From positions 1 to 14,666 of the forward strand of contig JAHKZS010000049.1 in the NCBI GenBank assembly GCA_020626545.1: a DNA stretch of 14,666 nucleotides, read 5' to 3'. The notes beneath the pieces are model-generated. The model was not told the origin of the DNA and did no database searches. It was given only the letters and a program-made list of their open reading frames with translations. Below, piece after piece: positions 468 through 13,469 of the stretch (the first letter of the stretch is position 1; each line of letters starts with the position of its first letter). This DNA comes from a bacterium (GTDB lineage Bacteria; Bacillota; Clostridia; Oscillospirales; Acutalibacteraceae). The translations under genes were made by a program, and so were the position numbers.

Positions 468-1399
468 AAAGAATTCTTTTAATATGTCTGAGCGCGCTGA
501 TACTCGTGACCGCGGCGTCGGGATGTTCCGCGAAATCGGATAAAGGAAACAAGCTGAATATAGTGACTACGATTTTCCCGATTTACGATTGGACTAAGGA
601 GATAGCGGGCGGTAAAGCCGACGTGAATCCGCTCGTTGACGACGGAGTTGATATGCACAGCTTCCAGCCCTCCGCCGAGGATATTGTTAAAATCTCGAGC
701 TGCGATGTGTTTATCTATGTCGGCGGTGAATCCGACAGCTGGGTGGACGACGCTCTAAAGGAAAAGGTCAATAAGGATATGACCGTTATAAACCTGCTCG
801 ATGTGCTGGGCGATTCGGCTAAGGAAGAAAAGGCTGTCGAGGGTATGGAACCCGAGAAATCCGGCAACGATTCCCCCGAAACCGACGAGCATATCTGGCT
901 CTCGCTTAAAAACGCGAAAGTTCTCTGCGCGCGTATCTCCGAAAAGCTCGGTAAAATAGATTCCGCTAATAAAAAGACCTACGAGAAAAACGCCTCGGCG
1001 TATTCGAAAAAGCTCGATACCCTCGATAAATCTTACGAAAAAGCGGTAAAAGCTTCCGATAAGAAAACCGTGGTTTTCGGCGACAGATTTCCGTTTATGT
1101 ATCTCGCGGAGGATTACGGAATAAAGTATTACGCGGCGTTTAAGGGTTGCTCCGCCGAGACCGAGGCGAGCTTTAACACGATAGCGTTCCTCGCAGATAA
1201 GGTGGATAAAAATAATCTAAAGGCGGTTTTTAAGATAGAAACTTCCGACGGCAAAATCGCCGAAACGATTATATCCAATACGAAATCGAAAAATCAGAAA
1301 ATCTTAACCCTGGATTCAATGCAGTCGAAAACCGATTCCAAGTCGTCCTACGTTTCGGTTATGACGGATAATTTAAATGTTTTAAAACAGGGTTTATAA
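464..1399 (+). CDS. Metal ABC transporter substrate-binding lipoprotein (ZnuA/TroA family)
   Basis: This is a 311-residue lipoprotein. Its signal peptide ends in the lipobox AASGC, with Cys21 as the lipidated residue, so it would sit on the outer face of the membrane and deliver a metal, most likely Zn(II), to an ABC permease. Family landmarks are VTTIFPIYDWTKEIAG (34-49), DMHSFQPSAEDI (63-74) with His65, DEHIWLSLKNAK (141-152) with His143, and DRFPFMYLAEDYGIKYY (207-223), where Asp207 stands at the position that is commonly a third metal-binding His. That DRFPF form is also known in clostridial members, so it is probably a variant rather than a defect. The loop at 115-140 is acidic instead of histidine-rich. 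It overlaps the regulator by 4 bp. Cognate permease and ATPase genes are absent here; a terminator follows directly, so they must lie elsewhere. Confidence 0.9.
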   Translation: MKRILLICLSALILVTAASGCSAKSDKGNKLNIVTTIFPIYDWTKEIAGGKADVNPLVDDGVDMHSFQPSAEDIVKISSCDVFIYVGGESDSWVDDALKEKVNKDMTVINLLDVLGDSAKEEKAVEGMEPEKSGNDSPETDEHIWLSLKNAKVLCARISEKLGKIDSANKKTYEKNASAYSKKLDTLDKSYEKAVKASDKKTVVFGDRFPFMYLAEDYGIKYYAAFKGCSAETEASFNTIAFLADKVDKNNLKAVFKIETSDGKIAETIISNTKSKNQKILTLDSMQSKTDSKSSYVSVMTDNLNVLKQGL

Positions 1400-1406
1400 T
1401 AGTATA

Positions 1407-1438
1407 GCGGGTGAGCGTTTTGCTTGCCCGGCTTTTTT
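1407..1438 (+). terminator. Intrinsic terminator after the znuA-like gene
   Basis: A 9-bp stem (1408-1416 with 1422-1430, two wobble pairs) has a GTTTT loop and is followed by a run of six T (1433-1438). It begins eight bases after the stop codon and closes the metal operon. Confidence 0.75.
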
Positions 1439-1444
1439 ATTTTA

Positions 1445-1507
1445 GGGCTAAGGGCTAAGGGCTAAGGGCAAAGGGCTAAGGGCAAAGGGCTAAGGGCAAA
1501 GGGCAAA
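1445..1507. repeat. Heptanucleotide tandem array GGGC(T/A)AA, nine units
   Basis: There are nine contiguous 7-bp units with no interruption: GGGCTAA three times, then GGGCAAA, GGGCTAA, GGGCAAA, GGGCTAA and GGGCAAA twice. Only the fifth position varies (T or A). The array starts seven bases after the T-run of the preceding terminator. The function is unknown. Confidence 0.95.
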
Positions 1508-1520
1508 GGTAGCGTTGCGA

Positions 1521-1536
1521 CCGCCGCCTGCGGCGG
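1521..1536. repeat. Short GC-rich hairpin
   Basis: CCGCCG (1521-1526) pairs with CGGCGG (1531-1536) around CCTG. A GTAG tetranucleotide lies eight bases before it (1509-1512), as in REP elements, but the framework differs from the two REP-like copies downstream. A second short hairpin follows at 1581-1595 (CGCGCT, CTT, AGCGCG). Confidence 0.6.
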
Positions 1537-1658
1537 ATAAAGGGAGCAAAAGCGCTGCGCAAAATAAGGAGTATGGCGAGCGCGCTCTTAGCGCGAGACA
1601 GACGACTATATTTTGGGCTGGACATTACTTTAAATAATATCAATGTTACCTTAACACC

Positions 1659-1689
1659 GTAGGGAACACCCTCTGCGGTGTTCCGAGGC
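1659..1689 (+). repeat. REP-like palindrome with 5' GTAG, copy 1
   Basis: This 31-nt element reads GTAGGGAAC, 12 variable bases, then GTTCCGAGGC. The stem GGAACACC (1663-1670) with GGTGTTCC (1677-1684) sits directly on a GTAG foot at 1659-1662. Repetitive extragenic palindromes mobilised by RAYT (REP-associated tyrosine transposase) enzymes carry GTAG or GGAG at this position. A second copy lies in inverted orientation at 1793-1823, so this is a real repeat and not a chance hairpin. No RAYT gene is in the window. Confidence 0.7.
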
Positions 1690-1716
1690 ATCTATATTAA
1701 CGTATTTGCACTATCC

Positions 1717-1765
1717 TTTCGCCAAAGGCGAAACGGTACACGTCTACCGTTTTGCTATCGCAAAA
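1717..1765. repeat. Chain of three overlapping hairpins
   Basis: Three perfect inverted repeats share their arms. TTTCGCC/GGCGAAA occupies 1717-1733, AAACGGTA/TACCGTTT occupies 1731-1752, and TTTTGC/GCAAAA occupies 1750-1765. The 3' arm of each overlaps the 5' arm of the next by three bases, so neighbouring hairpins compete at their bases. The segment lies between the two REP-like copies. Its function is unknown. Confidence 0.75.
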
Positions 1766-1792
1766 GGAAAACTCGCCGTTAACAGTGAACTC

Positions 1793-1823
1793 GGCTCGGA
1801 ACGGCACGGAGACCGTTCCCTAC
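1793..1823 (-). repeat. REP-like palindrome with 5' GTAG, copy 2 (inverted)
   Basis: Read on the minus strand this is GTAGGGAAC, 12 variable bases, then GTTCCGAGCC. It matches copy 1 at 18 of 19 framework positions and has the same spacing. The inner stem has changed on both sides (GG/CC here, ACC/GGT in copy 1), so pairing is kept. The copies face each other across 103 bp, like the paired units of a bacterial interspersed mosaic element or the ends of a small inverted-repeat element. Confidence 0.7.
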
Positions 1824-1838
1824 TATTTATTAAAGATT

Positions 1839-1859
1839 AGGATATAGGATGTAGGATGT
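1839..1859. repeat. Heptanucleotide tandem array AGGAT(A/G)T, three units
   Basis: Three contiguous 7-bp units: AGGATAT, AGGATGT, AGGATGT. It is the second of three arrays with the same 7-bp period and an unrelated sequence. Confidence 0.8.
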
Positions 1860-1865
1860 AGTGTA

Positions 1866-1907
1866 ATTGTCCATTGTCCATTGTCCATTGTCCATTGTCA
1901 ATTGTTA
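1866..1907. repeat. Heptanucleotide tandem array ATTGTCC, six units
   Basis: There are four identical ATTGTCC units, then ATTGTCA and ATTGTTA. The degenerate units are on the side nearest the pilus promoter. The array ends about 40 bp before the -35 hexamer. Confidence 0.9.
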
Positions 1908-1935
1908 AACAATCGTGACGAACGGTTTACAATTT

Positions 1936-1975
1936 TGTCAAAGTAATTGACAGGGAATTTATATAATAGTATAAT
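1936..1975 (+). promoter_or_regulatory. Perfect-consensus sigma-A promoter of the pilus operon
   Basis: TTGACA (1947-1952) and TATAAT (1970-1975) are separated by 17 bp, an exact match to the sigma-A consensus, giving a start near 1982. The -35 hexamer is the right arm of an inverted repeat TGTCAA (1936-1941), AGTAA, TTGACA, which could be an operator that masks the -35. A second TATAAT at 1962-1967 has no -35 at usable spacing. Strength and regulation are inferred. Confidence 0.85.
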
Positions 1976-1981
1976 TCATAG

Positions 1982-2097
1982 TGGAATAATTGCGTTTAAT
2001 CGCACTCTCGGTCACGTGCATGGCTGTATCCGAATGTTTTTATTCGGAAAGAAAATATGCGGGAAATGCACGCTCTCGCGGAAAGGAAATACGCTAT
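1982..2097 (+). promoter_or_regulatory. Structured 5' leader of the pilus operon
   Basis: The untranslated leader of about 116 bases can fold into a nested structure. An outer 7-bp stem, CGTGCAT (2015-2021) with ATGCACG (2066-2072), encloses a hairpin TCCGAAT (2029-2035) with ATTCGGA (2042-2048) and a T-rich loop. The Shine-Dalgarno AAAGGA (2082-2087) lies ten bases past the outer stem. No riboswitch family was recognised. The stems are seen; a regulatory role is inferred. Confidence 0.45.
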
Positions 2098-5000
2098 ATG
2101 AGAAATTTAAATCATTTAGCAAAGGGTACAAGCTTTTTCGTAAAATTCGGTTCTGTAGTTCTCTCGGGTTTAATCGCGGCGACTGTATTTACGAGCCTGA
2201 CGCTTCCGAGCGAGCCTGTTAAGGCGGCTAAGGTTAAAACCGTTAAGACAAGCGCCTCGAGCGGCGCCGACTATACCGTAAATACTATCGGAAATACCCG
2301 AAGCGACATCTACTGGAACAACGCTACTTATTTCGATTATCTCAGCGATACCGAGATTTCTAAGGGCTGGCTCAACGCCGACCAATCCGGTACGGGCTTT
2401 AACGGCTCGTCTGACGACTGGTATCCGTTTAAGAGCTTAAACTCTACTATCAGCTCTATCGCGGGAAGTAACTCCGCTTGGTCTAAGCCTCTGTATTTCG
2501 GTAACTACTGTAATACGAACGGTTCTTATGACTCAAGCACTCACAACGGCGTTACAAGTTTGAGCGGCGTTACTAAGGATAATATCTTTAATTCCTTTAT
2601 CACTCCGCAGGTTAACCGATTCAATTACGCGGCTAATAACTCGAACGGACTTAGTAATCTGCACCAGAGCTATCCGAACCTTATGCAGAACAGTCTTACT
2701 AATTCTAACCTTATGGCGACATCCTCTCTGCCCGCGCCTTACTTTAACGCGTCGGCTTTAGGAAATAAGGTGAGAACTGTAGACAGCTTCTTCCCGTTCA
2801 GAACGACTAAGAGTAAGGGCGGTACGGGTAAAACTACCTACTACGAGTTTAACTCCAACGACGCTACCGATAACGTTTACTTTACCTGGGCTTCTACGGG
2901 AGCCGGCGGTACTAACGATTTAGTTAAACCGACTAAGGTAAACTACGGCGCGGGTAAAACCTACGGCGTAGAGGACGGACTTAAATACTTTATGAACCCC
3001 GACGACGTTTATAACGAGACGGGTACTGCTTATAAGAATAATAAGTACTACGGTATTTTCCCGTTTAATAACCGTAAGAGTAACGGCGACAGCAGAACTT
3101 CCGCCTATAACACTCGTTATATTTACGCGAGCAAGGGCGATACCGGCTGGAGCGATATTTACTGTTACTTCTTCGATAACAGCGGTAACGCTGTCGGAAA
3201 CTCTTTCCCCGGAACTAAGATGGAAGCTTACTTCGAGGGCGGTGATAACCGCAGGATTAAGATTCCCGACGGAGCGACTAAGTTTATTCTCAGCAACGGT
3301 ACAAGCGGCGGTATGAACCAGACCGGTGATATTTCCGACTTAAGCTGGGGCGCTTACTCGCTTGAGGGCTCGACTAAGTACGTTTATCTCAGTAAGGATA
3401 ATGTGGGCTGGTCTGACGGCGATACTAAGTGTTATTTCTTTAACGACAGCGGCGCTGTCGGTAACGGCTGGCCGGGATATACAATGCAGAGCTACGACGG
3501 CACTTCTAATGTACGTGTAGCGGTTCCCGCGGGAGCTACGCACTGTATCTTCAGTCAGAACGGTAATAACCAGACCGCTAACGTTGACTTACGCAATACG
3601 AATTGCGCTTATTGGCTCGGAAATGACAGAAGCGTTCACCAGTGGACTGACGCTCCCTCGGACGCGGGTATATCTTCCTCGTCTTTAAGCGTTAAGAACT
3701 GGGATTCAAAACCCAGCGACGCGGGTAAGGCTTCTCCGGGTAATGAAGCGCTCGACTACGGCTTCGGTATCAGAATGGATATGAAGTTCAGAGTACCGAG
3801 CGGCGGTTACGACGACGATAATAAGCCTGTTGAGTTCAACTACTCGGGAGACGACGACCTTTGGGTTTATATTACCGACAGAAACGGAAACTCGAAGCTT
3901 GTACTCGACCTCGGCGGTAACCATAAAAAAGCCGAGGGTAAAATCAGCTTCGTTCCGAAATCGACCAACGGTTCCGTCGCGACCTGTACATCCACGGCGA
4001 ATAACGCCTACGGTATAGGAGAGCAAAAGACTGACTTTACGTTCGACTATTCCCAGACCTACACGATGTCCATTTTCTATATGGAGAGAGGTATGTTCGA
4101 GAGTAACTGTAAAATGTCTTTCTCGCTGACTCTCCCCGAGAACAACGTTCTCGTCGATAAAACCGTAGATACCGCCGATGTAAACAGCGGTTTAGCTTCT
4201 TCTTCAAGATTTAAGTCGCTTGTTTCAGACGAAAAGTTCGACTTTACGGCGTACCAGAACGATACCGCTAAAACGGATACAGAGTACTCGCTCACCGATT
4301 CGGTAAGCGGTATTACAGACGGTCTAAAGACCGACGCCTCAAGCGGTGTATTCGAGCTTAAGGATAAACAGTCCGCCGACTTCCCGAACAAGTTTACCTC
4401 GGGAGCGAACGTTTACGTTAAGGAGGCTTACGACTCCTCTAATAAGCTCAGCTACGATACCGCGTGGACTGTTAAGGATGTTGTAAATAACAACACCGTT
4501 CTCGGTTCGACAAGCTCGCTTTCGGGCGCGGATAAACAGACCTACGCTATGAGGACTAAAAACTATCCGCTTATTGACTCTACCGCGGGAGCTGATGTCG
4601 GCGACTACGCGGAGCTTCAGTACAGCTTTGAGAACTCGGTAAAAACCGCTCCGCTCTCCATTACTAAAACAGTAAAGGATTATAAGGGCAACGATATTAC
4701 CTCGACCTCGGAGCTTAAAAACGATACCTTTGACGCTACGGTCGAAATCGACCTAAAGGACGGCGGCGGCTTTAAGACCTATGACCTCGCCTATACAGAT
4801 ACCGACGGTAACTCGGGCAGCGGCTCAACCGTTACTCTGAAACACGGCAGAACCGTTACTATCGAGGGTATCCCGATAGGCGCTGATTACAAGGTAACCG
4901 AAACCGTACCCGCTAAGTATACGAACGACAGTAATGTCTATACGGGTACAATTACCTCGGCGGGTAAAACCGTAAGCTTCGTTAATACCGAAAAAGGCCC

Positions 5001-5874
5001 CGACAGCACCACGGCTGTTATCAAGGCTAAGAAGTCCTTTAAGGACGATAAGGGTAATGACGTAAGCTTTACCGACGGTTCGTTTGAGTTCGAGCTTTAC
5101 AGAGGTACTTCTATTATTCAGACTAAGTCCGTTAGCGGTTCCTCTAAGGAAGCGTCTTTCGACGCGATAACCTATACAGACGTAGGAACTCACTCCTATA
5201 CTATTAAGGAAAAACAGCAGTCGGGCGACGGTATGATTACTTACGATACTAAGTCGTACGATGTAACAGTTAATGTTACCAAGAGCGGAAGCAATCTTTC
5301 CGCGGCGGTAAGCTACAGCGGTACAACTTCCGCGTCCACACCGCCTACCTTTAACAACATAGTTAAGACAGGCTCGGTTGTAATTAACAAGAGCAACCAG
5401 GCGGGCGGAAAGCTTAAGGACGTAACGTTTACCGTTTATAAGGTTAGTAAGGCAACCGCCGACGCTAACTCGTCCTACGATACCGTAACCTCTACGGGTA
5501 CAGTAGTGGACGATTACGTAACTGATACCGACGGTAAGGTAACTGTAAGCGGACTTCCTGTTTATAACAACAACAGTTATAATTCGGACAGCCCCTCTTA
5601 CCAGTATTACGCGCTGCTCGAAAAATCCACGGGCGATAGTAACTATCGTCTTAACCGTGTTGTAAACTACTTCTGTTTCGATAACTCGAATGATTTAACC
5701 AGAACCTACAGCTACTTAAACGGCCATCTCAGAAACCCGAAAACCGCGGGCGACGGAGTTTTAGCCGTAGTTAAGACAGGCTTGCTGTTTATCTGTTTAT
5801 CGGGACTTAGTTTACTTGTTTATTTTGTAATTAAACGCCCAAGAAAAAAGAAACTCGCTCATTTAAGAGCTTAA
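2098..5874 (+). CDS. Large pilus-associated surface adhesin: fibro-slime domain, two CBM26-like modules, isopeptide pilin domains, NPKTA sorting signal
   Basis: This is a 1258-residue cell-wall protein. The ATG at 2098 (AAAGGA ten bases upstream) gives a normal signal peptide with its hydrophobic core at 14-36; the frame stays open upstream to a TTG at 1990 but that would bury the signal. A fibro-slime domain seems split: YFDYLSD (78-84) and FFPF (231-234) belong to its first part, and SGDDDLWVYI (583-592), LVLDLGGNH (601-609) and FYMERGMFESN (660-670) to its second. Between them are two homologous modules (340-412 and 427-498) with aromatic, GWSD, CYFF, PG-x2-M and N-Q-T motifs like starch-binding CBM26. 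Stalk domains follow: about 682-850, a DUF5979-like domain at 851-965, a streptococcal-pilin-type isopeptide domain at 972-1090, and a Cna-B domain at 1091-1210. The C-terminus is a sorting signal: NPKTA (1213-1217), a hydrophobic helix, then RPRKKK. A tip or wall-anchored adhesin role is inferred. Confidence 0.85.
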   Translation: MRNLNHLAKGTSFFVKFGSVVLSGLIAATVFTSLTLPSEPVKAAKVKTVKTSASSGADYTVNTIGNTRSDIYWNNATYFDYLSDTEISKGWLNADQSGTGFNGSSDDWYPFKSLNSTISSIAGSNSAWSKPLYFGNYCNTNGSYDSSTHNGVTSLSGVTKDNIFNSFITPQVNRFNYAANNSNGLSNLHQSYPNLMQNSLTNSNLMATSSLPAPYFNASALGNKVRTVDSFFPFRTTKSKGGTGKTTYYEFNSNDATDNVYFTWASTGAGGTNDLVKPTKVNYGAGKTYGVEDGLKYFMNPDDVYNETGTAYKNNKYYGIFPFNNRKSNGDSRTSAYNTRYIYASKGDTGWSDIYCYFFDNSGNAVGNSFPGTKMEAYFEGGDNRRIKIPDGATKFILSNGTSGGMNQTGDISDLSWGAYSLEGSTKYVYLSKDNVGWSDGDTKCYFFNDSGAVGNGWPGYTMQSYDGTSNVRVAVPAGATHCIFSQNGNNQTANVDLRNTNCAYWLGNDRSVHQWTDAPSDAGISSSSLSVKNWDSKPSDAGKASPGNEALDYGFGIRMDMKFRVPSGGYDDDNKPVEFNYSGDDDLWVYITDRNGNSKLVLDLGGNHKKAEGKISFVPKSTNGSVATCTSTANNAYGIGEQKTDFTFDYSQTYTMSIFYMERGMFESNCKMSFSLTLPENNVLVDKTVDTADVNSGLASSSRFKSLVSDEKFDFTAYQNDTAKTDTEYSLTDSVSGITDGLKTDASSGVFELKDKQSADFPNKFTSGANVYVKEAYDSSNKLSYDTAWTVKDVVNNNTVLGSTSSLSGADKQTYAMRTKNYPLIDSTAGADVGDYAELQYSFENSVKTAPLSITKTVKDYKGNDITSTSELKNDTFDATVEIDLKDGGGFKTYDLAYTDTDGNSGSGSTVTLKHGRTVTIEGIPIGADYKVTETVPAKYTNDSNVYTGTITSAGKTVSFVNTEKGPDSTTAVIKAKKSFKDDKGNDVSFTDGSFEFELYRGTSIIQTKSVSGSSKEASFDAITYTDVGTHSYTIKEKQQSGDGMITYDTKSYDVTVNVTKSGSNLSAAVSYSGTTSASTPPTFNNIVKTGSVVINKSNQAGGKLKDVTFTVYKVSKATADANSSYDTVTSTGTVVDDYVTDTDGKVTVSGLPVYNNNSYNSDSPSYQYYALLEKSTGDSNYRLNRVVNYFCFDNSNDLTRTYSYLNGHLRNPKTAGDGVLAVVKTGLLFICLSGLSLLVYFVIKRPRKKKLAHLRA

Positions 5875-5899
5875 AATAATTAAAAGGAGATTATGAAAA

Positions 5900-7273
5900 A
5901 TGAAAACTACTAAGAAGATTTCAGCAGTTTTACTCGCTGTACTCTTTATCTTATCAATGATTCCGTTCGCTGTAAGCGCGGCGTCACACACTCTTACCGT
6001 AAAGCTCGAATACCCCGACTATACAGTAAATGTTTACCAGATCGCTACTGTAAAAGACGACGGTACATACCTTATCACAAACGATAACGCTCCCGCCGCT
6101 GTTAAGAATCAGGTAAGTGCGGCTGAAACAAGCACAGTTGCTCTCTTTAACGCTCTCGAGGCTGATACTGCTACAACATATCCCTCAAGCGGTACTATGA
6201 CAACTACTTCCGCCGCTTCCTCACAGACTAAAGACTTTACACTCGACCCCGGTCTTTACTATGTTAAGTTCACAGCTTTAAGCTCCAAGAACGCTACTTA
6301 CGGCAACTCTCTCGTAGTTATTGATAATCAGAACGTTACTCTCGATATTAAATCCGAGGGCAAGGTAACCGAGGGCGAAGCTTCCGTACACAAGAAGATC
6401 GTTGAGGACGGCAGCGAAATTACAAGCACAACTACAGGCACACTCGATACAGTTGAGTTCAAGCTTTCCGCTACAAGAACAGGTTCCGCTAAAAACAAGC
6501 TTTCCGAGTATGAAATCCGCGACGTAATGGACAGCGGTCTTTCCGCGAGCGACGTTAATATCACAAGCGTTGAGTACGAGGACGGTACTAAGATTACAGA
6601 CTACAAAAAGAAAACCGCTTTCACAGATACTAACAAAGACGGCGAAAACGTTAATTACACATTCGCTGTAGCTATCGGTTTCGATACTCTTAACGGCGCC
6701 GCTTTCTATACTCACTCAAACATCATCGTTAAGTATACAACAAAGCTTTCCGCGAGCGCTGTTCAGAAAACTAAGTACTACAACCACGACGACCTCTATT
6801 TCAAGAATAAATCCGACCAGGTTTCTAAGGAGAGCGGTGACACAGTAGACGTTGTAACTTATAAGCCCCAGCTTAAGAAATATGTAGCAGGCGGTACAAC
6901 TCCTCTCGCTGACGCTAAGTTCAAGCTCTATAAGAGCGACAAGGAAACTGTTATCGGTTACGGTAAATCCGACGCCGACGGTAACGTTGAGTTCTATAAG
7001 GAAGAAGCTCTCACAAACAAGCTCTACGTTAAGAAGGGCACATACTGGGCTAAGGAGTACGAAGCTCCCGCGAATTACAACCTCAACAACTCCTGGGTAG
7101 AGCTTTCCGAGGACAGCACAAACTACCTCTACAACGGTACAGTTTACAACACTCCCGTTAAGCTTCCTAAGACCGGTGACGTTGGTACAATGGCTATCAC
7201 ACTCACAGGTATCGGACTTATCCTCGCTTCCGGCGTAATGTTCATCGTTTTAAGAAAAAGAACATCTAAGTAA
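5900..7273 (+). CDS. Major pilin (LPKTG, isopeptide-forming fimbrial shaft subunit)
   Basis: This 457-residue protein has the size and order of a SpaA/RrgB-type shaft pilin. A signal peptide ends near AVSA (24-27). An N-terminal domain runs to about 155, a central D2-type isopeptide domain (about 160-315, starting at VHKKIVEDG) follows, and a C-terminal Cna-B domain (about 320-420) carries a degenerate E-box, YWAKEYEAPANY (382-393). The sorting signal is LPKTG (422-426), a hydrophobic helix and RKR. No canonical YPK pilin motif is evident; Lys151 or Lys322 are only candidates for the linking lysine. AGGAG at 5885-5889 is 10 bases before the ATG. The gene lies 25 bases after the adhesin. Its codon use differs from its neighbours: threonine is mostly ACA and serine TCG is rare or absent, which suits very high expression. 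Polymerisation by the class C sortase encoded downstream is the expected route. Confidence 0.92.
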   Translation: MKTTKKISAVLLAVLFILSMIPFAVSAASHTLTVKLEYPDYTVNVYQIATVKDDGTYLITNDNAPAAVKNQVSAAETSTVALFNALEADTATTYPSSGTMTTTSAASSQTKDFTLDPGLYYVKFTALSSKNATYGNSLVVIDNQNVTLDIKSEGKVTEGEASVHKKIVEDGSEITSTTTGTLDTVEFKLSATRTGSAKNKLSEYEIRDVMDSGLSASDVNITSVEYEDGTKITDYKKKTAFTDTNKDGENVNYTFAVAIGFDTLNGAAFYTHSNIIVKYTTKLSASAVQKTKYYNHDDLYFKNKSDQVSKESGDTVDVVTYKPQLKKYVAGGTTPLADAKFKLYKSDKETVIGYGKSDADGNVEFYKEEALTNKLYVKKGTYWAKEYEAPANYNLNNSWVELSEDSTNYLYNGTVYNTPVKLPKTGDVGTMAITLTGIGLILASGVMFIVLRKRTSK

Positions 7274-7287
7274 TATTTAAACTAAAC

Positions 7288-7318
7288 TTCGGCGGTCGGC
7301 TTTATGCCGGCTGCCGAA
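7288..7318 (+). promoter_or_regulatory. Strong intercistronic stem-loop between pilin and sortase genes
   Basis: A 13-bp stem (7288-7300 with 7306-7318) has two wobble pairs, no mismatch and a TTTAT loop. It is followed by AAAAG and not by T, so it is not a classic terminator. A second AT-rich stem, TGAAAAATA (7331-7339) with TATTTTTCA (7357-7365), lies just before the sortase ribosome binding site. The likely role is 3' protection or processing of pilin mRNA, lowering sortase output relative to pilin. Confidence 0.6.
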
Positions 7319-7386
7319 AAGTATAAAGGCTGAAAAATAGAAACTAAATTAGCTTTTATTTTTCAACTTTTATAAAGGATTTGTAT

Positions 7387-8277
7387 ATGAAAAAACGACT
7401 TCCGCTTATATTTATAATACTTGTGTTTATAGTAGGAGTAGGGCTTTTGTCCTATCCGCTTGTAAGCTCTGTGATTAATAATATCGACGCTAGAAACTCC
7501 GCCGGGGATTATTTGGTGGAGAGTAAGGCTATGCCCGATAAAGAGATAGAAGCGCTGTTAAAGGACGCTCGAAAATATAATATGAGCCTTACCGATAACG
7601 TAATTCTTACCGACCCGTTCGACGAAAAGGCTTACGCTAAAATCGGCGCTAATTATAATAAGGTGCTCAATCACCGTAAGGACGGCGTAATTTGCTACGT
7701 AGATATTCCGAAAATCGACGTCTATCTTCCCGTATTCCACGGAACCGAAAAGGCTACCCTCGCTAAAGGCGCGGGACATCTCGAGAATACTTCTTTCCCG
7801 ATCGGCGGTAAAAGTACCCACAGCGTTATCTCGGCTCACTCGGCTTACCCCGGGGAAACGTTCTTCGACTATCTTCCCGATTTAAAGAAGGGCGACGTTT
7901 TCTATATCCACGTATTAGATCGCACCCTGAAATACGAGGTTGACCAGATTAAAGTCGTGCTCCCGAGCGTAGTTAAGGATATGTATATCGAAAAGGGTAA
8001 GGACTACGTTACGCTTCTGACCTGTACTCCGTACACGATTAATACCCACAGGCTCTTAGTCCGCGGAAAGCGGGTTCCTTACTCTAAGAACGAGCCGGAA
8101 AATTCCGTAAGCTCCACGAGCGCCGTGAATATCTTCGAGGACGGATTTTTCTTCTTCGGTTATAAACTCACCGTTCCCGTTATGGCGGGTATAATCGGCG
8201 GATTTGTACTGGCGGTAATTCTTATCGTCGTATTCGTCGTAAAACGCGGCGGGAAAAAGGGGGAGAGGTATGAATAA
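7387..8277 (+). CDS. Class C (pilus-polymerising) sortase
   Basis: This 296-residue transpeptidase is membrane-bound by an N-terminal helix (about 5-27) and a C-terminal helix (about 262-286) followed by KRGGKK, as is typical of class C. The active site is complete: His151 in SAHSAYPGETFF, Cys213 in TLLTCTPYTINTHR, and Arg222. A lid motif Asp76-Pro77-Phe78, which covers the active site in class C enzymes, is present. The ATG at 7387 is seven bases after AGGA; an upstream TTG at 7381 is too close to the ribosome binding site. The enzyme would cleave the LPKTG pilin between Thr and Gly and join it to a lysine of the next pilin. It overlaps the next sortase by 8 bp, so the two are translationally coupled. 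Confidence 0.95.
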   Translation: MKKRLPLIFIILVFIVGVGLLSYPLVSSVINNIDARNSAGDYLVESKAMPDKEIEALLKDARKYNMSLTDNVILTDPFDEKAYAKIGANYNKVLNHRKDGVICYVDIPKIDVYLPVFHGTEKATLAKGAGHLENTSFPIGGKSTHSVISAHSAYPGETFFDYLPDLKKGDVFYIHVLDRTLKYEVDQIKVVLPSVVKDMYIEKGKDYVTLLTCTPYTINTHRLLVRGKRVPYSKNEPENSVSSTSAVNIFEDGFFFFGYKLTVPVMAGIIGGFVLAVILIVVFVVKRGGKKGERYE

Positions 8278-9019
8278 AATTCTCAAAAGAACCCTTATAA
8301 TTTTCGCCTGTCTGCTTCTTGTGACGGGAATAGCGCTTGTTTTGTATCAGCCTGTTTCGGTTGAACTCGGAAAAATGGAAGCTAAAAGTATAATCGAGGA
8401 GTTCGACAAAACTTATAAAGCGGTAAATAATAAGAAAAAGAATACGCCTAAACCTAAGCGGAAAGGCTCAGCTTCTTCGGCTATGAACGTAGACGTTAAG
8501 GCGCTTAAAAAAGCTTCGGTAAAATATAACAAGAGCCTGCTCGATAACCAGGGCACCGTTGATACCAGCGACTACAGTAAAGCCGCGCTCAACCTCGGCA
8601 AATACGGCGTGACTAACGGAGTGTTCGGATATATCTCCGCGCCCGCTATAAATATGTCGCTTCCGATTTACCTCGGCGCCAATAACAGCCTTATGAGTAT
8701 CGGCGCGGCGCATATGTGCAATACATCCCTGCCCGTTAATATGGAGGATACTAACTGTTGTATCGCCGGACATACAGGCTATAGAGGACGGGTTTTCTTC
8801 GATAACCTGCGCCAAATGAGCGTCGGCGACGAGATAAAGGTTAAAAATTACTGGCAAACGGTAAAGTACAATGTAATTGATACGAAGATTATAACCGATA
8901 AACAATCCGAGGATTTTTATATTAAAAAGGGTAAAAAGCTTCTTACCCTTATGACCTGCGTTTCCAACAACAAAGGCGGTTTCGACCGTTTCCTTGTAAT
9001 ATGTGAAAATAAACATTGA
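8270..9019 (+). CDS. Second, divergent sortase (class C-like core, no lid, no C-terminal anchor)
   Basis: This 249-residue sortase has one N-terminal membrane helix (about 7-26) and the full catalytic triad: His168 in AGHTGYRGRVFF, Cys230 in LTLMTCVSNN, and Arg240. Compared with the preceding enzyme it lacks the DPF lid and the C-terminal helix, ends shortly after the catalytic Arg, and has ten rather than nine residues between Cys and Arg. A lysine-rich linker (54-65) follows the membrane segment. Three further cysteines lie near the active-site His (150, 163, 164). The start codon is inside the end of the class C gene with a GGGGGAG ribosome binding site. The likely role is processing the NPKTA adhesin or anchoring finished pili to the wall. 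I could not assign it firmly to class B, C or D. Confidence 0.85.
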   Translation: MNKILKRTLIIFACLLLVTGIALVLYQPVSVELGKMEAKSIIEEFDKTYKAVNNKKKNTPKPKRKGSASSAMNVDVKALKKASVKYNKSLLDNQGTVDTSDYSKAALNLGKYGVTNGVFGYISAPAINMSLPIYLGANNSLMSIGAAHMCNTSLPVNMEDTNCCIAGHTGYRGRVFFDNLRQMSVGDEIKVKNYWQTVKYNVIDTKIITDKQSEDFYIKKGKKLLTLMTCVSNNKGGFDRFLVICENKH

Positions 9020-9028
9020 GGTGATTAA

Positions 9029-12000
9029 ATGAAAAGATTTATATCTATTGTACTGACAGCTATTATCGCGGCGTCTGTTTTCAGCGCGGCAATTCCGGCG
9101 GGCGCCGTTTCGGACGATTACTACGAGAACGGCTTCTACTTTAAGCTCGGCGAAGATAATAACGCGACTGTAACGGGTACTGACTTAGACGACGTTTTCC
9201 TGTATATCCCCGGCGACCTCGAAAACGGTTATCAGGTTACCGCTATCGGTGACGAAGCGTTTAAGGGTAATCTTAAAATGGAGTCCGTTAGCTGTGAGTC
9301 TGACCTCGAGAGCATAGGCGAATACGCCTTTGAGGACTGTTCCCATTTGGCTAAAGCTTCATTCGGCGGACAGGTCGGCTCTATAGGCAAGGGCGCGTTC
9401 TCGATGTGCTCCTCTTTAAACGAGGTTAATCTAAGTAAGAACGTCAGCTCAATCGGCGACGGCGCGTTCTTCTTCGACGAAAAACTTACCGCGTTCGGAT
9501 TCCCGAAAAATCTCGAGAGCGTTGGTGAATACGCGTTCGCCTTTTCGGGCGTTACGAACGTTATTATGAATAACAAGATTAAAACTATCCCCGAAAGGCT
9601 GTTTTACGGCTGTAAATCCCTGCGCAATATCGCGCTTCCAAAAGACCTCGAAACTGTCGGCGACTATGCTTTTACAAAATGCGAAGCCCTCGATATCGAC
9701 TCTTTCCCGAGTACGCTTAACCGAATCGGAAAATACGCGTTCAGTAATTGCGGTTTTTCTTCGATAGACTATAACGGCGCTATAATAGGCGAGGGAGCTT
9801 TCTCGAAAAATAACGATACAATCGAAGAATTGAGATTCTCCGATAACCTTAAAAAAGTCGGCAAGCTCGCGTTCTCGGAAACGAGAGTAACTAACGTTGA
9901 GCTTCCAGATAATGTAACCCTCGAGAACGGAGCGTTCGCCGCTGTCTCGACCGATAAATATTCTTTAAAAGAAACAAACTCAAAGTATATCTGCGACGAC
10001 GGAGTTGTTTATACTAAAGATAAGAAAACGCTCGTGTATTACCCTCAGGATAAGGGTTCGGCCGACGCTTCTGATGACGAAGCCGGCTATACTTACACTA
10101 TCGCGAATAAAACCGAAGCTGTCGCGCCCTGCGCTTTTTACGGCTCGAATTATGTTTCCGAGGTTAAAATGCCCGATTCCCTAAAGACAATCGGCGATTA
10201 CGCTTTTTATCAGTCGAGCTTGAAAACCATTACCGTTCCCGATTCGGTAAAAAAGCTGGGCGAATACTCTTTCGCTAATAATTCAGGGATTAAAAGTATT
10301 GACCTCGGCTCTGTCGAGGAAATCGGCGATATGGCTTTCTTAGCCTGCGCCGAAGAACCTGTTACGGTTAAAATCCCCGATACACTTAAAGCCTTTAACC
10401 CCGACGCGTTTATCAGCTCGGGAATTAAGTTCGACGTTGACGAAGCTTATAAGGCGGTAGACGGAGTTCTCTATTCCGCCGACGGAAAAACGCTTCTCTG
10501 CTATCCTAAATCCGACGATACCGAGTTTAAAATCCCCGACGGCGTTGAGGAAATCGCTCCGAGAGCTTTCGCGCTCAACAATACGGCGCTTGAGTTATCT
10601 ATCCCCGAGAGCCTAAAAACTATCGGCAAAGAAGCTTTAGAATACTTTATCAGCTACGAAGAAGAATACGAGGATTTAAAGTTTAAGGACGGAATGTATC
10701 TTATCGGCAACGTAAGCGCTGAGGTAAAGGACTACGCTTCCAAGCACAATATAGGCGTGTTTACCGAAAAGCCGTCTCAGAATATCGAATCCGTAACATT
10801 AAAGGGCAAAGAAACCGCGGACTTTACTATAAAGGGCGCGGATAAATCCGACGTAGTTTATACGTCCAATAACGACAGAATCGCTTCGGTTTCCGAAAGC
10901 GGTAAAATTACAGGACTTAAAAAGGGTACTACTTACGTAACCGCGGCGGTAGGAACCTCTTACTTTAAAGTTAAGGTTAACGTAACTTCCGACAGCGGCG
11001 TTAAATACACAGGCTTTGACGACAGCGGCTATTACAGAATTACCCCGAAAACCTACGACCAATGGCGTAAAAATTACCTGAAAAACAATCAGTATATCGT
11101 CGATAATTATAACGAAGCTTCCGACGAGACAGCTATGGGAGCTTACCAGAGCGAAGATTATTATATGGCGATGGACGGCGTAACCTACGACGGAAGCAAC
11201 TTCTACCAAAAGGCTCTCGTCGATTACGGTAAAGATTTCGAGCCGATGATTTCTATGCTCAATCACGCCTGTAATACAGAGCTCGCCCGCCATAAAAACT
11301 CCGACAGCTTAGTTCTCTACAGCGGAGCCGAGCCGTACGCTTCGAGATTGATCGCGGGCGAAAATAATACGATTAAAAGCCTTAGAGAAAAGGTCGGCAC
11401 AACTTTTAAACATCCCGAATACGTCAGCACTTCTCTGTCCCCGAATGTCGCTAATGATTTCTACAGCAAGGGCGAGGGCGTTATGTGTATTATCTACGCC
11501 GAAAAATCAGCTCTCGATAAAATCCCCGCGGGCTTAATCGCGGCTATGCACTCCGATTTCGAGTATGAACTGCTCTTTGCCCCGGGCAGTGAGTTCGAGG
11601 TTGTTGACGCGGGCGTGCGTTGGTTCGAGAACAGCGAATGGAGAAAATCCGACGACGAACCCGTGAGCAACTACCAGCGTTACGTAAAGCTCAGGCTTCT
11701 CGGCGGTAAGGATACTCCCGACAAGCGCCCGACTCCGAGTATAAGCCTTACTAAAGCGCCTAAGAATATGTATCTTAAACAGACAGCTGATCTAAAGTAC
11801 AGCTTTAAGAATACCTACGACCACAGCGCAACCTTTACGAGCAGTAATACTAAGGCAGCTAAAATCAGCAAGAACGGTAAGATAACCGCCTTGAAAAAGG
11901 GAACGACTACTATCACCGTTTCCAATTCCGAGACGAAAACTTCGTTTAAGCTCACGGTTAAAAAGCCCTCGCTGAATATTACCAAGCGTACTGTTAATAA

Positions 12001-12181
12001 GGGCAATACCTTTAAGCTGAAGGTAAAAGGCGGAGTAGGCAAGGCTAAGTTTAAATCGAAATCTAAAAAGACAGCGTCCGTTTCTAAAAAGGGCGTTGTA
12101 AAGGCTAAGAAAAAGGGCAGTACTACTATTACCGTAAAGACTAACGGAATTACCTTAAAGTGTAAGGTAAAGGTTAAATAA
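9029..12181 (+). CDS. Secreted BspA-like LRR protein with Big-type repeats and an ADP-ribosyltransferase-like domain
   Basis: This is a 1050-residue secreted protein. A signal peptide ends near AGAVS (24-28). Residues 65-580 are a BspA-type (LRR_5) leucine-rich array of roughly 23-residue repeats built on IGxxAF. Big_2-like domains follow at 585-655 and 905-977, with a third, lysine-rich and lower-confidence one at 979-1050. Between them, about 660-895 fits the ADP-ribosyltransferase exoenzyme fold: LYSGAEP (763-769), STS (800-802) and the glutamates of EYELLFAPGSEFEV (845-858), matching the STS and ExE motifs. The first motif normally contains Arg; here Ser765 occupies it, so catalysis is uncertain. 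There is no LPXTG and the C-terminus is strongly basic, suggesting charge-based retention at the surface. The gene starts nine bases after the sortase, so it belongs to the pilus operon. LRRs of this type commonly bind proteins or host surfaces. Confidence 0.85.
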   Translation: MKRFISIVLTAIIAASVFSAAIPAGAVSDDYYENGFYFKLGEDNNATVTGTDLDDVFLYIPGDLENGYQVTAIGDEAFKGNLKMESVSCESDLESIGEYAFEDCSHLAKASFGGQVGSIGKGAFSMCSSLNEVNLSKNVSSIGDGAFFFDEKLTAFGFPKNLESVGEYAFAFSGVTNVIMNNKIKTIPERLFYGCKSLRNIALPKDLETVGDYAFTKCEALDIDSFPSTLNRIGKYAFSNCGFSSIDYNGAIIGEGAFSKNNDTIEELRFSDNLKKVGKLAFSETRVTNVELPDNVTLENGAFAAVSTDKYSLKETNSKYICDDGVVYTKDKKTLVYYPQDKGSADASDDEAGYTYTIANKTEAVAPCAFYGSNYVSEVKMPDSLKTIGDYAFYQSSLKTITVPDSVKKLGEYSFANNSGIKSIDLGSVEEIGDMAFLACAEEPVTVKIPDTLKAFNPDAFISSGIKFDVDEAYKAVDGVLYSADGKTLLCYPKSDDTEFKIPDGVEEIAPRAFALNNTALELSIPESLKTIGKEALEYFISYEEEYEDLKFKDGMYLIGNVSAEVKDYASKHNIGVFTEKPSQNIESVTLKGKETADFTIKGADKSDVVYTSNNDRIASVSESGKITGLKKGTTYVTAAVGTSYFKVKVNVTSDSGVKYTGFDDSGYYRITPKTYDQWRKNYLKNNQYIVDNYNEASDETAMGAYQSEDYYMAMDGVTYDGSNFYQKALVDYGKDFEPMISMLNHACNTELARHKNSDSLVLYSGAEPYASRLIAGENNTIKSLREKVGTTFKHPEYVSTSLSPNVANDFYSKGEGVMCIIYAEKSALDKIPAGLIAAMHSDFEYELLFAPGSEFEVVDAGVRWFENSEWRKSDDEPVSNYQRYVKLRLLGGKDTPDKRPTPSISLTKAPKNMYLKQTADLKYSFKNTYDHSATFTSSNTKAAKISKNGKITALKKGTTTITVSNSETKTSFKLTVKKPSLNITKRTVNKGNTFKLKVKGGVGKAKFKSKSKKTASVSKKGVVKAKKKGSTTITVKTNGITLKCKVKVK

Positions 12182-12332: not shown

Positions 12333-13469
12333 ATGTATAAAATAAAAGGTAAGATTGACTCGAACAACGCGGCTGAGTTCGAGAAAGAGATTATGGCGGT
12401 AAAGCCTAACGAGATTGACGCGTCCGAACTTGAGTATATCTCCAGCGCGGGACTTCGTGTACTTTTAAAGCTTACGAAGTCTGTCGGCGAGGTTAGTATA
12501 TTAAATGTCACAAACTCTGTCTATGAGATTCTTGAGGTTACGGGATTTACTTCTATCCTAAATGTAAAAAAGGCTCTGCGTGAGATTTCCGTCGAGGGCC
12601 GCGAGAAGATAGGCGAGGGCGGAAACGGCGCTGTTTATCGGCTCGACGAGGACACTATAGTTAAGGTCTATAAGTCTAAGGTCGGTTTGGAAGAAATCGA
12701 CCGCGAGCGTAATTACGCTCGCACAGCGTTTATGAACGGTATTCCGTCCGTTATCGCTTACGATATGGTTAAGGTCGGCGATTGTTACGGCGTAGTGTTC
12801 GAAATGCTTAAATCGGATACTTTAGGACACGCTATGAGGGATAATCCCGAAAAGCTCGAGGAATATACCGACAGCTTTGTCGAGCTCGCTAAAACTCTCC
12901 ACACGACCGAAATGCCCGACGGCAGTATAGACCGTGTTCAGACTGTATATCATCATCTTGTTGATAACCTCGGCGAGTGGTGTTCCGACGAGGAGATTGC
13001 GCTTTTACACGGTATCGTGGACGAAATTCCCGAAGCGAATACTGTTATCCACGGCGATTTTCACCCCGGTAATGTTATGATTCATGACGGCGAGCTGGTA
13101 TTGATTGATATGCCCGGTATCTCGATGGGACCGCCTGTGTGCGACCTTGTAGCCGCTTACCGAGATATGATTTCAGCTCCGCAGGGCAGGGAGAAAGGCG
13201 CTATCGAGTACAGCGTAGGTATGTCCCCTGATTTAATCTTCAAGGTTGGAAATATGTTCTTTATGAAATACACGGGTATTTCCGACCCCGAACAGCTTAA
13301 AGAGTATTTTCAGAAACTCGGACTTTTATTAGCGTTTAATGTTGTATTGACCTGCGGTTCAGGTTCGCCCAGAGCGACAGCTCTCGCGCCTATGCTTATG
13401 GATAAGCTTCTCAGAGGAGTTGTAATACCTAACGAACAGACTGTAAAATATCTGTTTAAAACTATGTAA
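12333..13469 (+). CDS. STAS (anti-anti-sigma-like) domain fused to an aminoglycoside-phosphotransferase-like kinase
   Basis: This 378-residue cytoplasmic protein has two parts. Residues 1-85 are a STAS domain with the phosphorylation-site region DASELEYISSAGLRVLL (29-45); Ser37 or Ser38 matches the serine that anti-sigma kinases phosphorylate in SpoIIAA-type proteins. Residues 88-378 are a protein-kinase-like fold of the APH/choline-kinase superfamily: glycine loop IGEGGNGAVYR (93-103), catalytic Lys111 in VKVYK, catalytic loop HGDFHPGN (240-247) with Asp242, and metal-binding Asp259 in LIDMPG. The kinase part resembles an uncharacterised family known from Fibrobacter and clostridia (TIGR02172-type, by recall). 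The substrate is unknown; small-molecule, protein or self-phosphorylation of the STAS serine are all possible. It has its own promoter and precedes a permease by 35 bases. It is not evidence of drug resistance. Confidence 0.8.
   Translation: MYKIKGKIDSNNAAEFEKEIMAVKPNEIDASELEYISSAGLRVLLKLTKSVGEVSILNVTNSVYEILEVTGFTSILNVKKALREISVEGREKIGEGGNGAVYRLDEDTIVKVYKSKVGLEEIDRERNYARTAFMNGIPSVIAYDMVKVGDCYGVVFEMLKSDTLGHAMRDNPEKLEEYTDSFVELAKTLHTTEMPDGSIDRVQTVYHHLVDNLGEWCSDEEIALLHGIVDEIPEANTVIHGDFHPGNVMIHDGELVLIDMPGISMGPPVCDLVAAYRDMISAPQGREKGAIEYSVGMSPDLIFKVGNMFFMKYTGISDPEQLKEYFQKLGLLLAFNVVLTCGSGSPRATALAPMLMDKLLRGVVIPNEQTVKYLFKTM

Follow-up and report, generated by a model that had tools for sequence, protein, structure and literature searches.

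We analysed a window of 14,666 nucleotides, contig C264 of a 1.86-Mb assembly from a gut relative of Ruminococcus (271 contigs, 87% complete), for a gene that appears to encode a surface adhesin. The open reading frame (ORF) starts with an ATG at position 2098, stops at 5874 and encodes a protein of 1258 residues (P0001). This protein is probably the tip adhesin of a sortase-assembled pilus, with a pair of α-glucan-binding modules of carbohydrate-binding module family 26 (CBM26) in a loop of its fibro-slime domain as the receptor-binding part. The modules, the fold of the second module, the conservation of the aromatic columns, the site of insertion and the operon were computed directly. For the coordinates of all features see Table 1.

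A search of P0001 with the Pfam profile of CBM26 (PF16738) resulted in a match in two stretches (E = 4.3e-15, 56.1 bits, cut-off 28.1), and in a search of the whole genome each module alone exceeded the cut-off (3139–3333 with 33.5 bits, 3382–3585 with 34.9 bits). A local profile placed the modules at residues 342–412 and 429–496; they are 49% identical to each other. The two homologous, CBM26-like repeats that a preliminary description had proposed at about residues 340–412 and 427–498 are therefore real, and their family resemblance is borne out by the profile scores. A phmmer search with residues 328–507 against the PDB sequences yielded nothing useful (one row, an autolysin, E = 2.6), and the PDB search required a profile built from the window modules together with eight further CBM26 modules of the genome. 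Foldseek returned zero rows at E ≤ 0.001 for a 741-residue model; the informative fold evidence came from a VIA re-alignment and a model of the isolated tandem. Module 2 is predicted to adopt a β-sandwich fold that resembles solved CBM26 structures. In profile, predicted module 2 fold and aromatic columns, the pair is similar to the CBM26 modules of Ruminococcus bromii Sas6 (PDB-entry 7uwu), Eubacterium rectale Amy13K (6b15) and the Bacillus halodurans amylase (2c3h). Those modules, however, are part of enzymes or of amylosome starch-binding proteins, whereas the window pair is found in the loop of a putative pilus adhesin without a match to an enzyme, cohesin or dockerin.

The pair occupies a loop of the fibro-slime domain that we call slot 1. 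Many homologues align to residues 66–329 of P0001 and resume at residue 543 with two residues between (420 and 423 in P0055, 433 and 436 in P0071), and a paralogue on contig C212 of the same genome, which serves as an in-genome control, also has an empty loop. Measured from GIFPFNN to YGFG, the loop comprises 16–26 residues when empty, about 95–160 when it holds a single module of whichever type and 226–235 when it holds two (15 of the 121 proteins lack a landmark). These empty loops confirm the earlier suggestion of an insertion between two halves of a fibro-slime domain. TIGR02148 matched the second half only (43.9 bits against a cut-off of 45, profile positions 18–89 of 90), and the insertion precedes the matched part. 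PA14-type fold matches of the model cover both halves, and a common arrangement may suffice for such scores, including those with PA14 lectins (yeast Epa/Flo, a Marinomonas adhesin). A second loop in the same domain, slot 2, is short in P0001. Another fibro-slime protein of the same genome (L013:304-3924) has no CBM26 match and carries an unlike module in slot 2; its chain also holds a pilin-backbone domain (PF16569) and LPKTG, and by eye a sortase-like ORF follows.

The predicted glucan-binding site was derived from an alignment of 80 CBM26 modules (thinned from 93). Nearly every module of the slot-1, slot-2, N-terminal and other-genome groups has an aromatic residue in the columns of Y446, F448 and W458 of module 2, which correspond to Y357, F359 and F370 in module 1; most modules located behind the domain have a non-aromatic residue at F448. 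Both window modules possess aromatic residues in these predicted platform columns, the lack of which the preliminary description had named as a ground against its reading, and both retain the NQT motif. For Sas20d1, the published work describes a loss of maltooligosaccharide binding upon the exchange W72A and of maltotriose binding upon Y60A (PMC9112005). Judging from the motif spacing, we read W72 and Y60 as counterparts of the window platform columns. Modules of this type could also have drifted to a protein or a non-glucan glycan ligand, the loop then serving receptor binding in general, with the CBM fold as no more than a scaffold. Such drift would fit the loss of WPG or platform letters in P0034, P0032 and P0006 module 1, the F370 in place of W in module 1 of the window, and the presence of modules in the same loop that are not detectably CBM26. 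For the window protein we consider it quite improbable, since its modules keep aromatic residues at the three columns, among them W458 in module 2, and NQT in both.

In order to see which modules sit where, we surveyed the best 120 of 7077 homologues (alignment A1 comprises 52 of these 120, A3 comprises 22). Modules were counted in 122 rows, of which 121 are proteins and one is the C212 paralogue; slot 2 of the latter is the same as that of P0057. CBM26 is located in slot 1 in 33 rows (7 double and 26 single, the latter including the misfiled P0120, in which landmarks are missing), and in slot 2 in 15, of which 8 carry it at the N-terminus as well. In 11 rows it is only N-terminal, in 5 it lies behind the domain, and 58 rows lack it altogether. 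Across 116 rows, slot 1 contains one or two CBM26 modules in 32, other sequence in 16 and is empty in 68; slot 2 of these 68 is empty in 28, contains CBM26 in 15 and other sequence in 25.

Judged by sequence, the CBM26 modules of slot 1 and slot 2 are of the same lineage. Over 105 columns they share 56% identity (hhalign E = 5e-46), compared with only 32–35% identity to the eight other CBM26 modules of the genome. In a tree of the modules, slot-1 modules are nested among slot-2 modules, and the slot-2 module of P0037 lies within a slot-1 clade (97/90); the tree is based on 75 columns, its deepest split is weak (79/91), and the long-branch N-terminal module of P0103 falls among the slot-2 modules. 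A quick tree of the core domain (98 of the 116 rows after thinning, with 6 rows skipped because of missing landmarks) resulted in 11 changes for slot 1 and 7 for slot 2 with the states CBM26, empty and other, and in 7 and 2 changes, respectively, for CBM26 versus not. These counts are not firm minima, because many forks are weak and the state 'other' includes degenerate CBM26 modules (P0032 and P0036, 98.9% with slot-1 CBM26). A second module family is present in both slots: group S1b matched S2x with 96.5% and S2z with 97.0% (alignments of 3–9 rows), decoy segments from the same proteins reaching at most 3.7%. It remotely resembles N-terminal CBM26 (94.8%). Compared with the genome's other CBM26 modules, S1b, S1e, S2y and S2z were not detectable as CBM26 and S2x reached only 86%; given these non-detections, we do not extend the label starch-binding to every loop module. 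The slot-1 insert of P0075, P0092, P0093, P0104, P0105 and P0109 comprises about 135–145 residues, and its motif order suggests a split or permuted CBM26; group S1d, consisting of these six and P0103, matched N-terminal CBM26 with 93% over 24 columns, which is partial profile support.

Close relatives differ in what the loop holds. Compared as protein sequences, P0013 and P0041 are 98% identical in both flanks (266/272 and 159/162) and 92% in the rest, with 21% identity in the loop module. For P0012 and P0031 the values are 95% and 97% in the flanks, 91% in the rest and 26% in the module, and for P0014 and P0031 they are 96% and 97%, 93% and 27%. P0011 and P0038 have flanks of 97% and 99% identity around loop modules that align no better than shuffles (score 27, reached by 65 of 200); their stalks differ as well (56%), so that this pair is mosaic further along. 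The CBM26 bearers P0011 and P0008 are 83% alike within the loop. P0041 represents a cluster of 11 member sequences (18-kb contig), P0031 and P0038 of one each; as an alternative module occurs in five proteins, assembly chimeras are unlikely to account for all cases. Flanks of 95–99% identity around unlike modules argue for an exchange of lectin cassettes by recombination. This points to the slot-1 loop as an exchange site for lectin-like cassettes, a larger finding that reaches beyond the starch modules, and it supports a receptor-binding role of the loop. On balance we lean towards the view that both tip slots of ruminococcal pili take exchangeable lectin cassettes, that the grip would be changed by recombining one loop, and that the window allele would clasp starch with its two modules in tandem, under the control of a structured RNA leader of its own (see below).

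The remainder of P0001 and its operon are consistent with a pilus. Of the stalk of isopeptide and Cna-B domains proposed in the preliminary description, the isopeptide domain was found (FctA), together with DUF7601 (matched by Pfam in two stretches); Cna-B was not called by name in the tip protein. The proposed sorting signal is present as NPKTAG, a hydrophobic stretch and RPRKKK. Its motif is of the xPxTAG type, not LPXTG, and occurs in all 7 two-module proteins, giving the putative tip its own C-terminal signal; Pfam Gram_pos_anchor gives no call on this C-terminus. A backbone pilin with an LPKTG sorting signal adjoins a class C sortase, and a second sortase follows. The order tip, pilin, sortase, sortase is shared by L014, whose flanks are those of the window, by L015 and L016, whose flanks differ, and by L021, L022 and L024, as read from ORF order and ends without profiles; in L023 one sortase-sized ORF is visible. 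P0001 could instead be a wall-anchored starch-binding protein outside any pilus. Its NPKTAG motif in place of LPXTG would suit this, and there is a precedent in the predicted wall-anchored, Sas20d1-like protein of R. bromii outside the amylosome (PMC9112005). With a pilin and two sortases directly downstream and this order kept in relatives, we regard such a protein as distinctly unlikely. This R. bromii protein, RBR_02940 (also written RBR_09240), shares with P0001 the predicted sortase anchor, the CBM26-like module and the location outside the amylosome. It differs in being a single anchored protein with predicted helices, encoded between tRNA ligase and probable endonuclease genes (PMC9112005) and not in a pilus operon. 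Gram-positive pili of the SpaA/SpaH type likewise combine a tip protein, an LPXTG pilin with a SpaA domain, a class C sortase and an isopeptide domain. In contrast to them, the window tip contains α-glucan-type CBMs in a fibro-slime loop and an NPKTAG signal. Cellulose-binding fibro-slime proteins are reported from Fibrobacter succinogenes (PMC4668043), which ties the domain to adhesion to plant polysaccharides there too; the window differs from them by a sortase-pilus operon of Gram-positive type and a starch-type CBM inside the fibro-slime domain.

The window genome contains 21 dockerins, 3 cohesins (2 over the cut-off) and 19 CBM26 matches at E ≤ 10, of which 16 are over the cut-off, two of these within P0001. 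P0001 itself has neither a dockerin nor a cohesin among its five Pfam matches at E ≤ 1, and an identity as amylosome scaffold was rejected on these grounds. All 40 genus genomes searched, G000 among them, contain CBM26, and 38 contain cohesin (36 over the cut-off). With P0001 as query, 31 of the 40 match at E ≤ 0.001, some only via CBM26 modules of other proteins, and the full-length two-module form is confined to G000, G005 and G018. With P0008 as query (E ≤ 1e-30), 2 of 120 family genomes match, G000 and one of 118 other genera, and this lone match in another genus covers the second half and the stalk only. By these searches the tip family seems to be rare outside the genus. The named relatives are a Clostridia metagenome-assembled genome (MAG), a Ruminococcus MAG from the abomasum of dairy cattle and the Ruminococcus MAG RUG13235.

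The glucan need not be dietary. The modules might bind glycogen, an α-glucan capsule or exopolysaccharide of neighbouring cells or the storage glucan of rumen protozoa, the pilus then being a cell–cell or biofilm adhesin. Pilus adhesins commonly bind cells, two of the named relatives are the cattle-abomasum MAG and RUG13235, and the predicted fold likewise resembles CBM25 and CBM41 from proteins that act on glycogen or pullulan. We nevertheless consider this unlikely, as the genus-wide occurrence of CBM26 and cohesin points to dietary starch, and so does pilus expression in bifidobacteria: a sortase-pilus cluster of Bifidobacterium pseudocatenulatum (PMC11286577) and pilin-related proteins of Bifidobacterium globosum (PMC13271388) are raised on starch.

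Several observations weigh against a starch-binding pilus tip. In module 1, F370 replaces the W of WPG (the F is shared by 4 of 7 first modules), and in module 2, K444 is located where Y is usual. Module 1 alone gave a weak fold match, with a predicted local distance difference test score (pLDDT) of about 57 in the larger model. The major pilin scored 72.9 against NF033902 of NCBIfam, under the cut-off of 95, and the second sortase 138.4 against NF033745, under the cut-off of 160. CBM26-type modules also bind soluble glucans, so the target is not necessarily granular starch. Finally, the presence of CBM26 in 40 of 40 genus genomes offers no contrast within the genus by which the adhesin's CBM26 could be set against starch use.

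Based on the sequence and modeling results we propose the following mode of action. The pilus, built from tip, backbone pilin and two sortases, would hold the CBM26 modules away from the cell. Both modules would bind in tandem, so that the bacterium could clasp starch granules or another α-glucan. The tip adhesin would act beside, not within, the cohesin/dockerin starch-degrading complex apparently encoded by the genome. Polymerisation of the pilus, the tip position, α-glucan binding and granules as the natural target are what we infer here. To the extent that sequence and fold are informative, the results support the earlier proposal of a starch-attachment pilus apart from the amylosome. Among the literature matches listed, in the open-licence text that was accessible, we recognised no account of an architecture combining CBM26, a fibro-slime domain and a sortase pilus. 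The slot-2 homologue P0048 is already named 'starch-binding protein' in databases, so annotation pipelines do detect the domain.

The operon is preceded by a putative promoter and a leader of 120 nucleotides. The promoter at 1947–1975 (12/12) was the best of 16 found in 1300–9200 (mean 10.3 in shuffles). An invertible promoter was considered and dropped: imperfect inverted repeats exist at 1659–1823 (76%) and 1728–1755 (86%), neither of which flanks the promoter. The leader is alignable in four loci, and the sequence before the promoter is not alignable in L015 and L016. When 100 genomes of the genus were searched under stricter filters with a model built from these four loci (R1), 3 gave a match with an E of at most 1e-28, namely the window genome, G018 and G075; in the first two the match is located at the pilus operon. 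The G005 leader reached only E = 1.8 with R1 and was alignable by MAFFT; one of its helices is fully rewritten, from CGUGCA/UGCACG to CGCACC/GGUGCG. Over the five sequences 91.3% of cells pair, and 4 of 16 pairs are changed on both sides. The covariation score of 0.262 was reached by 1 of 500 shuffles, and the best slid control scored 0.112. The fold of the window leader alone was modestly better than shuffles (z = -2.0). Two points count against the structure: in the alignment used, G005 disrupts the first helix at 3 of its 4 pairs and the inner helix at 4 of 6, and these sequences are also the ones from which the structure was derived. No Rfam 15 family was found (two matches, E = 5.4 and 8.9, far below gathering), and by eye no similar leader precedes five other fibro-slime genes (L022, L023, L024, L013, L017). 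We regard the leader as a candidate cis-regulatory RNA of the pilus operon.

Table 1. Features of the pilus operon and its tip protein (residue numbers refer to P0001).
Feature	Position	Strand	Remarks
Sigma-70-like promoter TTGACA-17-TATAAT	1947..1975	+	12/12 consensus positions; consensus match only
Structured 5' leader, candidate cis-regulatory RNA; 3' end is the GCGGAAAGGAAAT ribosome-binding region	1978..2097	+	kept in four loci, alignable in G005
Putative pilus tip adhesin P0001, 1258 aa, comprising the CBM26-bearing fibro-slime domain, the isopeptide stalk and the sorting signal	2098..5874	+	
Fibro-slime (PA14-like) domain, first half, residues ~60-326	2275..3075	+	conserved in homologues
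CBM26 module 1, residues 340-412, platform columns Y357, F359, F370	3115..3333	+	
CBM26 module 2, residues 428-498, platform columns Y446, F448, W458, NQT 491-493	3379..3591	+	
Cassette C-terminal extension and linker, residues 499-551	3592..3750	+	absent in empty-loop homologues
Fibro-slime domain, second half, residues ~552-690	3751..4167	+	TIGR02148 at 576-678; GDDDLW at 584
Slot 2 (second loop), residues ~620-645, short in window protein	within second fibro-slime half	+	
DUF7601 stalk domain, best stretch residues 853-964	4654..4989	+	PF24547 58.5 bits
Spy0128-like isopeptide domain FctA, residues 976-1089	5023..5364	+	PF12892 56.5 bits, TIGR03786 56.5 bits
Sorting signal NPKTAG, membrane span, RPRKKK tail, residues 1213-1258	5734..5871	+	sequence
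Major pilin-like protein, SpaA fold domain, LPKTG anchor	5900..7273	+	PF17802 44.4 bits; PF00746 21.8 (cut-off 20)
Class C sortase	7381..8277	+	NF033745 266.6 bits, cut-off 160
Second sortase, class C-like	8270..9019	+	PF04203 70.5 bits

Upstream of the operon, the window encodes a ZnuA-type metal-binding protein (PF01297), itself preceded by a Fur-family regulator (PF01475; both within 78–1399). Tandem GGGCTAA/GGGCAAA heptamers lie between the ZnuA-like gene and the operon (1444–1516), with fewer copies in L014. Downstream, 9029–12181 encodes a surface protein with BspA-type leucine-rich repeats and Big_2, residues ~780–860 of which show a weak likeness to ADP-ribosyltransferases (PF03496, E = 0.027, 14.2 bits, cut-off 23.4), and 12333–13469 a STAS domain fused with an APH/kinase-like domain.

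Ruminococcal attachment to starch has so far been viewed via amylosome proteins and a few wall-anchored binders. If our interpretation is correct, a pilus tip with starch-type CBMs would be a long-reach attachment device separate from the enzymes. A pilus that grips starch would offer a possible reason for the pilus genes raised on starch in some bifidobacteria (PMC11286577, PMC13271388). The exchange of cassettes would make the target of a pilus readable from sequence, with one scaffold, two slots and a catalogue of modules whose ligands may be tested individually.

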